DNA from: Candidatus Planktophila lacus
Lineage (GTDB): Bacteria; Actinomycetota; Actinomycetes; Nanopelagicales; Nanopelagicaceae
Assembly (NCBI RefSeq): GCF_002288385.1
Contig: NZ_CP016783.1
Span: 124,001 to 188,000, forward strand
Reading direction: 5' to 3'
DNA: 64,000 bases
This document shows positions 33,084-53,739 of the stretch, in pieces (the first letter of the stretch is position 1; each line of letters begins with the position of its first letter). A model generated the notes under the pieces. It worked only from the letters and a program-made list of their open reading frames with translations, was not told where the DNA came from and did no database searches. The position numbers were made by a program, and so were the translations under genes.

Positions 33084-33099
33084 TCAGGAATGTTCCTGA
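33084..33099. promoter_or_regulatory. palindrome over the KGK1 start codon
   Basis: TCAGGAA-TG-TTCCTGA is a perfect inverted repeat with 7-base arms that covers the ATG of the secreted protein gene and lies directly after its -10 box. It is well placed for a repressor operator at the transcription start, or a small start-codon hairpin. Confidence 0.4.
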
Positions 33100-34649
33100 G
33101 AAAAATTGTCGTTCCAAGCGTGACTGCGCTGATGGTTGCAATTGGATTAACTCCATCCGCACTAGCTGGTGAACCATCCGGAGCTGCAAATGTTGGGCTG
33201 ACTCAATTTCAGATAAAGAGCGATTTTGCACTGCTTTTTTCTGAGGCAAATGCTTCAGGTTTTTACAAACCTGTATTTAGCGGATTTATTGATTACAAAA
33301 CTTCAATTGACTACACAGCAGTACTTCCCAATTGTTCTGCTGATCTAACTAATCCTTGTGTAAAGTCATTTGAAGCTTCTATAGACGGCGGTAAAACTTG
33401 GGTCTCGTCGACATCTTCTAAAACTTATGCCGCAAAAGTATTTGATCAATCGAAGTATCCTGCCGGATCATTTATAAACCAGACGAAGAACTGGACTGGA
33501 GATGAAAAAACTTTACTCCCCTCGGGAGCCGATTCAAGCGTCTTTACTTTTCCTAAAGCGCCACATTTTGGTGGAGCTGAATATCTCTTGCAGCCAATCC
33601 TTGAAGGCGTGAGCACGACTCAAAGTGCTAACGCGAAGGCATGGAGATTATCTCTATCCATAATTCCAGTAAAAACTTATCCTGCTCCAAATCCAAATAA
33701 TTGTAGCGTTTGGCTCACAACATGCTTTGACTCATTCAATTTCAAGAGCGATGTAACTTTCCGAGTTGTGCTAGATCTTAAGTATCTTGCCTCGACTTTT
33801 AGTGGATGGTTTCAGAGCAGAATTCGAAATAGTGAGATACAGCAACTGACTCCCACGGAGTACTCATTTGTTGGCTCTTCAATGTCAGTAAGTTCGGTTC
33901 TAGCGGAGTTTAATCAACCATATTCTGATGCGCTGATTAATGCTTATCCAAATCTAAAGCCTGGATCAGCCCAAAATCAATTTTCATCCAAACTTTACTC
34001 AGTTTTTAGCAATTCAAATACGGCTATAAACAACTGGATCAGTTTAGAAAAAGCGATCCCAACACAAGCAAAATGGGAATCATCAATCTGGAGCGCCGTC
34101 TCTTACTCAACAGGATCTCGTGCAGATATCTACTCTCAGATGAATGGATGCCTGCAATTCAGTAAAGGCATTTTAGGTCAGGTGAGCACCAATGCGACGG
34201 TCTATTCAATTTCTGCGCCACTGTGGGATGCAGCTACAGATTCACTTTCATTCACGGTTGCAGCACCAAGTTTTGATTCTGATGGTGACAAGAAAAAAGG
34301 CGTCTACGATCTTGTTTTAAGAGAAGATATTGCCAAATGTCTTTGGGGTAAAGATCTCGCAAAAACCAGTGCCAAAATCGAAATCTTGAATTCTGATGGA
34401 ACTTCACAAGTAGCAACAACCACATTTCAGATCTTGAATGGTTATGTTTATTTCCGTGCAGCAGGTTTTCACTTCTCGGTTCCAAAAATTAAGGTTTCAG
34501 TTGTCGACGCTATGCCGATGCCTAGCCCTACCGCTAAAGTCTTAACTCCAGTTTCAAAAAAGTCGATCACTTGCGCAAAAGGTAAGGCGACCAAGAAGGT
34601 GACTGGCACCAACCCCAAGTGTCCGTCTGGCTACAAAAAGGTCGCCTAG
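33090..34649 (+). CDS. secreted protein with C-terminal KGK/CPxGYKK tag (KGK1)
   Basis: 519 residues. Signal peptide at residues 1-26 (RKIVVPSVTALMVAIGLTPSALA-G), then a long beta-rich extracellular region with paired cysteines (LPNCSADLTNPC; NNCSVWLTTC), a region CLQFSKGILGQ..., an FHFSVPKIKV motif, a Pro/Thr-rich linker, and a cationic tail with Cys495 and Cys511 (C-x15-C) ending CPSGYKKVA. I do not recognise a named domain. It is a full-length distant paralogue of the protein at 52243 and shares only the tail with the protein at 42268. The tail may be an envelope anchor; this is inference. Confidence 0.82.
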   Translation: MFLRKIVVPSVTALMVAIGLTPSALAGEPSGAANVGLTQFQIKSDFALLFSEANASGFYKPVFSGFIDYKTSIDYTAVLPNCSADLTNPCVKSFEASIDGGKTWVSSTSSKTYAAKVFDQSKYPAGSFINQTKNWTGDEKTLLPSGADSSVFTFPKAPHFGGAEYLLQPILEGVSTTQSANAKAWRLSLSIIPVKTYPAPNPNNCSVWLTTCFDSFNFKSDVTFRVVLDLKYLASTFSGWFQSRIRNSEIQQLTPTEYSFVGSSMSVSSVLAEFNQPYSDALINAYPNLKPGSAQNQFSSKLYSVFSNSNTAINNWISLEKAIPTQAKWESSIWSAVSYSTGSRADIYSQMNGCLQFSKGILGQVSTNATVYSISAPLWDAATDSLSFTVAAPSFDSDGDKKKGVYDLVLREDIAKCLWGKDLAKTSAKIEILNSDGTSQVATTTFQILNGYVYFRAAGFHFSVPKIKVSVVDAMPMPSPTAKVLTPVSKKSITCAKGKATKKVTGTNPKCPSGYKKVA

Positions 34650-42267: not shown

Positions 42268-43014
42268 ATGAAACGTATTCTTTTGGTTTTGGCCCTTGGG
42301 CTTTCAACATTGACTGCAATTCAACCAGCTCAAGCTGCTGAATTGTGTGCTGCGTTAAATGTTGGGTTAGTTGCTGATGACAATTTGACTGTAACGATGA
42401 AGTCAATAGAAATAACCGAAAAAACTGGCTCAAATTTATTAAAAATCTCGTACAACCAATTGAATGCGACAACTGATAAGAAACTAGATGAAGGTTCATT
42501 CAAGTTATTTTTCGCTGATGGAACCTCTGAACCGCAATATGGAGGATTTAACTACTTTTTCCCATCGGATACACGCGATCGTACATACACATGGGAATTC
42601 TTGAAAACCAAGGAACCACTTGTTATTGGATACAACTCAGGATTTTTCTCAGCAAAATATGACACTTCAAAATTGAACTGGGTTCTACCTGGAAAACCCT
42701 GCAACCTTGCTCCAACAGCACCCGCTGTCGATTGGACAGGTAAACAGCGCTATACAAGCGAACTAGATTATAAATTGTGCGTTGGTGGTGCTGAAATTTC
42801 AGGCACTAAGTCAAACTGCGGAATAGATCCGGCAGTAGTAAAAGCAGAGGCCAAAGCGAAAGCCGAGATCGATAAGTTGCTGGCAGACGTGATCGCGATC
42901 CAGGAAAAATTTAAGGGAACAAAAGCCTCGACGATAACGTGCTTGAAAGGCAAAGTTGCCAAGAAAGTTACTGCGGTTAAACCAAAGTGCCCTGCCGGCT
43001 ATAAAAAGAAGTAA
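42268..43014 (+). CDS. secreted protein with C-terminal KGK/CPxGYKK tag (KGK2)
   Basis: 248 residues. Signal peptide MKRILLVLALGLSTLTAIQPAQAA, then a beta-rich domain (residues about 28-150) with Cys27 and a second cysteine in LPGKPCNLAP that could be bridged, a short helical Ala/Lys/Glu segment (VKAEAKAKAEIDKLLADVIA), and the cationic tail with Cys225 and Cys241 (C-x15-C) ending CPAGYKKK. Outside the tail I see no similarity to the other two tagged proteins. No named family is recognised. It is convergent with greA, with stops directly adjacent. Confidence 0.8.
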   Translation: MKRILLVLALGLSTLTAIQPAQAAELCAALNVGLVADDNLTVTMKSIEITEKTGSNLLKISYNQLNATTDKKLDEGSFKLFFADGTSEPQYGGFNYFFPSDTRDRTYTWEFLKTKEPLVIGYNSGFFSAKYDTSKLNWVLPGKPCNLAPTAPAVDWTGKQRYTSELDYKLCVGGAEISGTKSNCGIDPAVVKAEAKAKAEIDKLLADVIAIQEKFKGTKASTITCLKGKVAKKVTAVKPKCPAGYKKK

Positions 43015-47528: not shown

Positions 47529-48152
47529 ATGGCAAGAAAGAAGTCGAGTACGTATTCACTTACGCGCTCCAACCGCTTTAAGTCGCGCGCCCTTTGGACT
47601 CTGGTTGCCACCTTCATTCTGACGACCGCGGCCCAACCAACGGCTAACGGTCTCGACTTCCCAACGACGACAAGTCTGGCCTTGCCGACTTCGGCGAAGT
47701 TGATGAAATCAGTTAACTTTAATAACGAGGTCGATCTTTCAGAAGGCGCCGCTCTTTACACCCAGCTCGATGAGAAGGCCGATCTCTTTGCTTCGCAGAT
47801 GGCGCTCGCCGCCGCAGTGAGCCAGCAAGTTGAAGCCGCTCGCACAATCATTGGTGCCAAGAAGGTTGCCAAGGCGATCGCGCTGACTGAATATGCCTGG
47901 GGCGAAGATCAGTACCTCTGCCTAAACCGTCTTTGGACTAAAGAGAGCCACTGGAATTACAAGGCTCGCAACAGGGTCTCTGGCGCACATGGAATTCCGC
48001 AGGCTCTGCCGGCATCGCGTATGGATGTTGTTTCAACCGATTGGCGCACCAACCCCGTAACGCAAATTCGTTGGGGACTTCGCTATATCGAGGCGCGCTA
48101 TGACAACCCATGTAAAGCATGGGCTAAGTTCAAGCGCAGCAATTACTACTAA
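47529..48152 (+). CDS. secreted lytic transglycosylase-like protein
   Basis: 207 residues. A long basic N-terminus (ARKKSSTYSLTRSNRFKSR) precedes a signal helix (WTLVATFILTTAAQPTANG), then an alpha-helical stalk and a C-terminal SLT-like domain: YLCLNRLWTKESHWNYKARN with the catalytic-type Glu, SGAHGIPQALP, and RWGLRYIEARYDNPCKAW. The two domain cysteines may bridge. It is similar to actinobacterial resuscitation/transglycosylase proteins that cut peptidoglycan. An unusually strong AGAAGGAGG site precedes ATG after a 241-bp gap, suggesting tight control in the leader. Confidence 0.86.
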   Translation: MARKKSSTYSLTRSNRFKSRALWTLVATFILTTAAQPTANGLDFPTTTSLALPTSAKLMKSVNFNNEVDLSEGAALYTQLDEKADLFASQMALAAAVSQQVEAARTIIGAKKVAKAIALTEYAWGEDQYLCLNRLWTKESHWNYKARNRVSGAHGIPQALPASRMDVVSTDWRTNPVTQIRWGLRYIEARYDNPCKAWAKFKRSNYY

Positions 48153-52242: not shown

Positions 52243-53739
52243 GTGAAAAAGATCGGATTATTGTTTTCGATCTTGGCGTTAGTTCTATCCTCAACACAAG
52301 CGATAGCTGCTGAAAACGTCTCAGTAAGTATTGGCGTGGATAATCAGAACGATAACGTTTATGAATCTGAGATAAAGAAAGTTAACTGGGTTGGGATTAA
52401 TAATGGCTTGCCCTACATGTATGGTCTCCAAAAGTGTGAAAGTTTCAACGATTTAGATTGCCTTAATTCCAATCCGGTCGGAATCGTGGCTACAACTATT
52501 CTGCCGCTCTGCAATGCGGAGAATAAATCCAATTGCCTTCTACTTCTACGAATAGGCATCGCTGGTGGCGATAAAGTTGAAGCCAGTTATTTGGGCTCCG
52601 CTGACGGAAACACGTTTCCTAGCGATGCTGCCAATGGAATTTCGGCAGGATCTACTTCGAGCATTTTTTTAGTAAAGGATAAAGACGGCGTCCAGCGATA
52701 CTTTGCATTGACAGCACAGATACAACAATTAAAGTCTCGTAAATTACCTGTTGGGTATCGCGACGTACAGGTTCCATACTTTAGCGTTGACATTAAAGAG
52801 ATTAATTTAAATTCACTAGGGCAATGCCTATTCTTGTTTAAAGATAAATGTGTAACTCATAAAACCACTGGAACATTTTCTGCAGAAGTTAAATTACGCC
52901 TCAGTAATGATCCACCAAAGTGGCTCGCGGGAAGAATGGCAGATCCAACAATTAAGTTCACCAAGTTAGCTCAGGGCAAGGAAGTAGTTATCTCCGGCGC
53001 AAGTGTTGCTGTGCCACTAATCGAAGGTAGCGTCCCTACATCATTATTCGCTAAATACCCAAGAGGCATAACTAGCCAAATGGTAAACACTGCCGCGCAA
53101 AATGGAACAAATGTAGAAATCGATTCAGGACTTGCAATTATGTATGCCACAGATGTGTTTACTGCGCTAAAAGAGAAATCAACTAAAGTTGTGAATTTCT
53201 GGAATATAAATGGATCTTCTCCGTTTACCGCTTTTTGTGCCGAGGATCTACAAGTTGACTGTCTTCAAGGTGGTAGCGGACCCTGCGTTGAGCAATCTAA
53301 AGACTTTGTTGGATTGCTTGCCACGAATGCCCTTATATTTAATAGAAACCCACCTCGTTTAATTGGCGATGAAATACAGTTTTTACTCGCATCCCCACAC
53401 TTGTTGCCGAACTCCCAAGCCACAGTTGGAAACTTCAATTTAGAAGCGTCATCGAGCATGCTCCGATGTATTTATGGGCTGCCCGATCTACCGCTCTTTG
53501 CTGAAATCTCAGTGGTAAATGATGCAGGTATAGAGAAAATTGCCACTAAGTCGTTCTTGGAGAAAAAAGGAGTCTCATATATTTCCGTGAATAACTTTTC
53601 GTTTTCAGTGCCGAAAATTAAGATCAAGCTGTATCAATCAAAGAAGCGAGTATCAATTAACTGCGTTAAGGGAAAAGTTAAGAAGTCAGTTAGCGGAGTA
53701 AAGCCAACCTGCCCAAAGGGCTATAAAAAAGTTGCTTAA
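52243..53739 (+). CDS. secreted protein with C-terminal KGK/CPxGYKK tag (KGK3)
   Basis: 498 residues, GTG start with AAGGAG 6 bases upstream, 9 bp behind ispH. Signal peptide KKIGLLFSILALVLSSTQAIAA, then an extended beta-rich region with many paired cysteines (KCESFNDLDC; PLCNAENKSNC; QCLFLFKDKC), FSFSVPKIKIKL, and a cationic tail with Cys474 and Cys490 ending CPKGYKKVA. It aligns over most of its length with the protein at 33090 (shared W-[LF]-x2-R, C-x2-SK, RC[LI]-[WY]-G and FSVPKIK landmarks). No named domain is recognised. Convergent with DUF6542; the stop codons overlap by 4 bp. Confidence 0.82.
   Translation: MKKIGLLFSILALVLSSTQAIAAENVSVSIGVDNQNDNVYESEIKKVNWVGINNGLPYMYGLQKCESFNDLDCLNSNPVGIVATTILPLCNAENKSNCLLLLRIGIAGGDKVEASYLGSADGNTFPSDAANGISAGSTSSIFLVKDKDGVQRYFALTAQIQQLKSRKLPVGYRDVQVPYFSVDIKEINLNSLGQCLFLFKDKCVTHKTTGTFSAEVKLRLSNDPPKWLAGRMADPTIKFTKLAQGKEVVISGASVAVPLIEGSVPTSLFAKYPRGITSQMVNTAAQNGTNVEIDSGLAIMYATDVFTALKEKSTKVVNFWNINGSSPFTAFCAEDLQVDCLQGGSGPCVEQSKDFVGLLATNALIFNRNPPRLIGDEIQFLLASPHLLPNSQATVGNFNLEASSSMLRCIYGLPDLPLFAEISVVNDAGIEKIATKSFLEKKGVSYISVNNFSFSVPKIKIKLYQSKKRVSINCVKGKVKKSVSGVKPTCPKGYKKVA

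Follow-up and report, generated by a model that had tools for sequence, protein, structure and literature searches.

Many exported proteins of Candidatus Planktophila lacus and its relatives end in a lysine-rich tag of about 28 residues with two cysteines (C-x15-C) that, judged by sequence, is a real modular element, unnamed in the sources searched and under selection at the level of the peptide. There is about an even chance that this tag is a disulfide-stapled, lysine-rich β-hairpin by which Sec-exported proteins are retained at the envelope through non-covalent binding of an anionic partner. The hairpin itself is predicted, and the retention reading, which may be put forward on sequence features, draws on signal peptides, modularity, end position, charge, co-conservation of the cysteines, peptide-level selection and presence on phage contigs.

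Three copies of the tag are encoded on the forward strand of the window (the whole stretch of 64,000 nucleotides that was analysed, C1:124001-188000 of the source genome, which is a single contig of 1,410,107 bases). The first, at 34557-34646, forms the C-terminus of the 519-residue protein P0001 (33090-34649), the second, at 42922-43011, that of the 248-residue P0002 (42268-43014), and the third, at 53647-53736, that of the 498-residue P0003 (52243-53739); a profile built from the three tails matched them with E-values of 6e-17, 1.3e-15 and 3e-17, respectively. Putative signal peptides were located in all three (33090-33167, 42268-42339 and 52243-52311) using a hydropathy score, with cleavage sites placed by eye. 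Three reading frames with signal-peptide-like starts and a common C-terminal element were therefore present as an earlier note on this DNA had described them, and the cysteines are indeed exactly 16 positions apart in each protein (495/511 in P0001, 225/241 in P0002 and 474/490 in P0003). Shuffling each of the three proteins 20,000 times at constant composition never reproduced the pattern C-x15-CPxGYKK, which, together with 22 matches of the profile in the genome itself, rules out chance as the origin of the likeness. The tag had been described as the extreme C-terminus, ending in CPxGYKK; it is terminal in all three proteins, but CPxGYKK stops one or two residues before the stop codon, the ends being GYKKVA in P0001 and P0003 and GYKKK in P0002. 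The claim that the exported bodies differ holds for P0002, which has a different body and, by pairwise alignment, only 26 tag residues in common with P0001 (18 of 26 identical), whereas P0001 and P0003 are paralogues (31 % identity over 166 C-terminal residues, tag included) and, for that reason, are not independent bodies. A close tagged relative of P0002 occurs in locus L184.

P0001 and P0003 belong to a family that carries a common domain of about 90 residues, A3, directly upstream of the tag (34242-34502 in P0001, A3 profile E 2.6e-34 and also modelled; 53374-53637 in P0003, E 2.5e-29). Over the whole source genome, the three-tail profile recovered 22 tag copies in 20 proteins (E 3e-17 to 3e-7, the three source tails included). 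All 20 have a signal-peptide-like start by a lax score, and in 19 the motif begins 26-30 residues from the C-terminus; one carrier of 745 residues has three copies with Pro/Gln-rich linkers and 28 residues after the last copy. The A3 domain is found just upstream of the tag in 18 of the 20 proteins, and the A3 profile matches exactly those 18 tag-bearing places in the genome. A3 is lacking in two carriers, P0002 and a protease-like protein (C1:452370) that contains the motif GDSGGS; the latter had no Pfam match at E 0.01 and is called trypsin-like because it has this motif and clusters with L121 and L138. Because 18 of 20 carriers in this genome, and 133 of the 244 in the full set presented below, represent one domain family, the carriers are less independent than the raw counts. 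A3 paralogues were also seen in tandem arrays of the source genome, a small one (C1:1131742-1138950, four genes; C1:982252-987984, three; C1:80399-83671, two), in which they are about 24-36 % identical where alignable. The fold predicted for A3 by AlphaFold2 is a β-sandwich, for which the best Foldseek match had an E-value of 0.17; kinship with Gram-positive pilin or antigen I/II domains was rejected, as the VIA-align Z-scores (at most 6.0) were under the level of true relatives. The lists from these fold searches scarcely cover the tag, which was modelled together with the body.

In nine relatives, 53 A3 copies were found in eight genomes, and 51 of them are followed by the tag (positions matched by hand), which brings the total to 69 of 71 domain copies (18 of 18 in the source genome). 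Of the two exceptions, one has KTTKKG at its end, and the other, in L351 (G012:C93), has a different C-terminal segment instead. Such constancy would suit a stability or assembly cap, with the hairpin packing on the neighbouring domain or mediating oligomerisation and having no envelope ligand. We consider this role very unlikely, as the same element is found on unrelated bodies and the same body occurs both with and without it; moreover, the A3-tag linker block has a pLDDT of 72 and the model a pTM of 0.66, which gives no indication that the tag packs firmly on A3.

A search of related genomes with the three-tail profile, as proposed in the earlier note, contributed to a carrier set drawn from 295 loci or sources, the patterns coming from the same clade. 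After frames lacking a stop had been dropped and carriers with identical last 70 residues merged, 244 distinct carriers remained, each with a stop codon; 12 of them are on viral loci. The tag lies within 5 residues of the end in 233, at 6-15 residues in two, at 16-60 in three and at more than 60 in six. A strict secretory filter was passed by 182 of 203 carriers with a complete start and by 3 of 53 non-carrier reading frames, a background that comes from this window only and in which one of the three positives (24203) is doubtful. The matches were thus mostly terminal and secretory, not cytoplasmic or mid-sequence, in keeping with what had been expected of the tag. Some of the 21 carriers that failed the filter are fragments or lack a start, several have a signal peptide by eye, and one, in L230, is an AT3-SGNH protein with multiple membrane spans. 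A looser signal-peptide score was discarded as evidence since it was passed by 195 of 203 carriers but also by 27 of 56 reading frames of the window.

The 111 carriers without A3 group into 33 clusters, six of which are fragments, leaving about 27 body clusters, an approximate number as some bodies were merged and remote relatives were possibly split. The largest cluster, with 36 members, mixes trypsins with other bodies (GDSG in 19 of 36). Among 30 carrier bodies, Pfam matches were obtained to Trypsin, Peptidase_S8, RCC1, fn3, BIg21, Peripla_BP_6 (two), Acyl_transf_3 with SGNH, DUF1501, Laminin_G_3, Kelch, Neocarzinostat, FMN_bind and others, names that are, to all appearances, of extracytoplasmic types. 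The idea of a modular basic two-cysteine element on different exported bodies, predicted to be a hairpin, is thereby upheld by about 27 clusters beside the A3 family. The tag occupies a free end of the body, in many cases separated from it by a linker that is rich in Pro/Ala or a coiled coil, and also stands at the C-terminus of an AT3-SGNH-type membrane protein (L230:2930-4993). The six carriers with the tag more than 60 residues from the end form one family of small exported proteins (L107, L111, L115, L117, L160 and L161), in which it is located near the N-terminus, directly behind the signal peptide. By its motif GGTGKYAGA, this family may be allene-oxide-cyclase/dirigent-like; L107 had no Pfam match. 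Four carriers of the set contain 3, 3, 3 and 4 tag copies followed by 13-28 residues.

The tag stands at the extreme C-terminus of many different bodies (233 of 244 carriers), and this position, its many copies per genome and its distribution over largely one bacterial family could all be those of a sorting or maturation signal, in which case a dedicated membrane enzyme would recognise the C-terminal tag, cleave it off and/or attach the protein covalently to the envelope. The LPXTG, PEP-CTERM and GlyGly-CTERM signals work by means of such enzymes, and the latter two are C-terminal sorting tags in which a motif precedes a transmembrane helix and a basic cluster. The tag resembles these signals in being short, C-terminal, lineage-restricted and present on many unrelated exported bodies per genome. 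Unlike them, it has no hydrophobic helix, is predicted to be folded, and is also found N-terminally and in tandem. Its columns are rich in K, T, V, C, P and G with no hydrophobic stretch, and no NCBIfam match to a tag of the PEP-CTERM/GlyGly-CTERM type was obtained. The pattern LP.[TS]G was absent from the last 60 residues of all 195 carriers with a signal-peptide-like start, and a search limited to the Pfam sortase model PF04203 gave no match in the source genome, the controls being positive in 3 of 14 genomes (B. subtilis, C. glutamicum and L. lactis). An enzyme-cleaved signal would be expected once per protein and at its end. The N-terminal tags of six carriers and the multiple copies in four argue for a binding module and against an enzyme-cleaved signal, and so, as regards a general role, does the predicted folding of the tag. 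Sorting by an enzyme is consequently regarded as quite unlikely, and the suggestion that a processing enzyme recognises the tag has lost ground.

Lipid anchors were also looked for. A lipobox pattern was matched in 3 of the 195 carriers, none convincing by eye, and none was seen by eye in the Peripla_BP_6 carriers L173 and L156; Peripla_BP_6 proteins are usually lipid-anchored in Gram-positive bacteria. The notion that the tag replaces a lipid anchor is nevertheless weak because lipoboxes are also rare in untagged secretory reading frames (5 of 68; one of the 68, L217, actually carries a variant tag).

The sequence of the tag is highly constrained. In 253 tags, the cysteines are 16 positions apart in 246 and 17 apart in five, all of the latter from multi-copy proteins, while the pair is missing in two, both truncated (L164 and L090); 251 of 253 tags thus have both cysteines at a fixed spacing, in an element predicted to be a hairpin. 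Aspartate and glutamate are absent from 241 of the 253, and the mean net charge is +8.9. Among 246 aligned tags, the columns conserved to at least 95 % are the isoleucine two positions before the first cysteine, both cysteines, a later lysine and glycine, and the final glycine; proline flanks the second cysteine in 98 % (before) and 99 % (after), the C, C, P-C-P, G and K-G columns range from 96 to 100 %, and the aromatic residue after the glycine is Y in 79 % and F in 20 %. Two AlphaFold2 models, of different bodies and from separate alignments, contain the same two-strand hairpin. In A3 plus tag, its predicted strands are residues 115-121 and 124-130 (pLDDT 90-95; mean of the model, 91.9); on the unrelated body of a phage Ig-like protein, they are residues 541-547 and 550-556 (pLDDT 82-86; overall, 67.1).

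A disulfide between the cysteines is plausible and is put no higher, because the source genome encodes a DsbA-like protein with CPAC and an N-terminal hydrophobic segment, either membrane-anchored or exported (C1:587682-588122, L352), but had no match to Pfam VKOR or DsbB. The DsbA-like gene adjoins one for a small membrane protein with DCGCFGG. By its mean charge of +8.9 and its cysteine pair within a hairpin known from prediction, the tag resembles hairpin antimicrobial peptides, and one might think of an encrypted cationic hairpin that is released to kill competitors. Its presence on 20 proteins of the source genome and, elsewhere, on binding proteins, a membrane acyltransferase and phage-contig proteins makes this highly improbable.

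When the tags of the source genome were compared in 231 pairs, identical residues were encoded by the same codon in 41.7 % of 3,888 comparisons; codon usage in the window would predict 40.0 %. Synonymous codons are thus randomised (0.417 versus 0.400), and selection therefore acts on the tag peptide, the DNA of which has diverged to saturation while the peptide was held. Since codon sharing equals the expectation from codon usage, recent duplication or gene conversion was rejected as the cause of the likeness for the set as a whole. In the adjacent pair C1:80399 and C1:81968, the tags are identical as peptides and share 69 % of their codons.

A class-level scan of 394 genomes, in which up to 20 candidates per genome were scored, found the tag in 31 of the 41 genomes listed for the source family (the source genome included) and in 1 of 353 others. 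As the remaining 10 of the 41 had no match at E 0.001, the tag is not essential to the family. In a scan of 41 relatives, it was present in 16, all of the same genus as the source, and a scan of 396 genomes of the phylum gave three matches, namely the source genome and two genomes of one other family, in both of which a small exported protein ends in the tag. One of the 30 bodies examined with Pfam matched Neocarzinostat and is, by sequence, the one from this other family. The tag is largely confined to one bacterial family, other phyla having been reached through the contig profile search of relatives, which covered 80 of 313. Some of the tagged contigs bear names, among them IMCC26103, IMCC19121 and SCGC AAA044-N04. 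The titles of the metagenome-assembled genomes behind L169, L176, L182, L222 and L241 (Bifidobacterium breve, Streptomyces griseus, Ferrithrix) clash with their acI-like tagged content and look mislabelled.

Beyond single weak matches, no model of Pfam, NCBIfam or PHROGs matched the tag, in agreement with the earlier statement that no named domain has this pattern. In the PDB, the best match covers 14 residues of an eggshell-membrane protein (E 0.0016), and no stretch passed alone. One of 45 tags gave TSP_1 at E 0.042 and another cEGF at E 0.18, both chance-level values; like TSP type 1 and cEGF domains, the tag is a small extracellular cysteine module, but those domains have more cysteines, whereas the tag has only two. 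No description of the element was found in the open-licence papers searched, so that it may have been described elsewhere, and the terms looked for in PMC6802176 do not occur there. The non-covalent wall-binding domains of monoderms comprise LysM, CWB1/CWB2, SLH, GW/SH3-8, WxL and CW-7 (PMC5817068, Table 1), of which GW is said in the same source to need two copies and CWB1 three. The tag is like these domains in being modular, attached to Sec-exported bodies and sometimes repeated, and by analogy it may, as they do, hold proteins at the envelope. It differs from them in its length of about 28 residues, its cysteine pair and its near lack of acidic residues and, compared with GW and CWB1, in usually being present once per protein. 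The Pfam models for LysM, SLH, CWB2, SH3, WxL, CW_7 and PG_binding had no match, at the thresholds applied, in the three window proteins, 45 tags and 30 bodies.

Retention at the envelope is favoured because the bodies are of extracytoplasmic types and include binding proteins and a membrane enzyme, the tag is positively charged and stands at the free end, and few other anchors were found. In the mechanism proposed, the body would be exported by the Sec pathway with the tag as a small, independently folding unit, the cysteine pair of which would staple the lysine-rich β-hairpin by a disulfide. The hairpin would then bind an anionic component of the envelope, either a wall glycopolymer or a surface polysaccharide, and thereby keep the protein at the cell surface; the 3-4 copies strung together in one protein family would provide avidity. 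The ligand would be located on the producing cell, and binding would be electrostatic and non-covalent. DNA, humic acids or a substrate could also be bound through positive charge alone. Speaking against retention are the tag-free genomes in the family, the untagged phage and host homologues discussed below and an exported transglycosylase-like protein at 47529-48152 that has no tag (SLT, 19.5 bits, under the cut-off of 21.3). The latter also argues against the idea that the tag simply targets wall enzymes to peptidoglycan.

Proteases and lectin-like and Kelch-type proteins are among the tagged bodies and tag copies occur in tandem, as is also usual in substrate-binding modules. The tag could accordingly be an environment-facing module for a carbohydrate, a particle or an anionic polymer, by which secreted enzymes and adhesins stick to substrates or to other cells instead of to the producer. 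We hold this to be unlikely, since the same tag is carried by bodies expected to stay on the cell (Peripla_BP_6, AT3-SGNH) and by a surface-type protein with tandem Ig-like domains.

The latter protein comes from phage contigs. In three viral scans, the tag was found on 38 distinct IMG/VR contigs (10, then 9 and 19 new ones), which are viral by IMG/VR prediction and in a few of which the phage genes beside the tag were inspected. According to the reading frames, the tag is on an exported protein of 562-568 residues in 29 contigs and on proteases in nine; Pfam Trypsin was over its cut-off in eight of these nine and under it in L250. Tagged exported trypsin-like proteases were seen in L249, L253, L254 and L255, that of L249 having as neighbours an HslV-like peptidase and a carbamoyltransferase (PHROGs matches). 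The 562-residue type is encoded directly downstream of the terminase large subunit in L247 and L287, and L287 also has RuvC and endolysin matches. Its model consists of tandem Ig-like domains, a helix at 509-537 and the tag hairpin; it is weak (mean pLDDT 67, pTM 0.37) and matches invasin, FdeC, SbsC and Sap, so that S-layer-like would be a description and not an assignment. The body of this protein had no Pfam match. Exported tandem-Ig proteins of about 536-568 residues, tagged or not, were observed in L246, L247, L248, L287, L291 and related IMG/VR loci.

Five of ten viral relatives of this body are tagged, four end in a coiled coil and one is cut off. Two distant host homologues, in G014 and G241, also lack the tag; among the family-genome matches listed for the phage protein, most align by the tail alone, and the body was aligned in these two. 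The Ig body thus exists with and without the tag, which must therefore have been gained or lost on one body. Curated phage records contained no match to the phage Ig protein or to a phage trypsin, and the 29-residue tag had no match in curated phage or plasmid records, where low-complexity filtering may hide it; the first of two parts of the article describing the earliest Planktophila phages brought into culture (PMC10202952) makes no mention of such a tag. The tandem-Ig protein is possibly a surface shield or an exclusion protein. More speculatively, and on balance doubtful, the tag might address proteins to a surface-attachment system of acI actinobacteria that has yet to be described and has a dedicated receptor in the envelope, and freshwater phages would have copied this label to place tandem-Ig shields and proteases on infected cells.

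The open-licence literature searched gave no account of how acI actinobacteria retain proteins at the cell surface. The tag carriers are exported proteins of these abundant freshwater bacteria, and the tag gives a handle on their surface proteome, with 20 proteins in the source genome. It would serve as a sequence criterion for annotating that proteome and may be a possible marker for phages of acI hosts.
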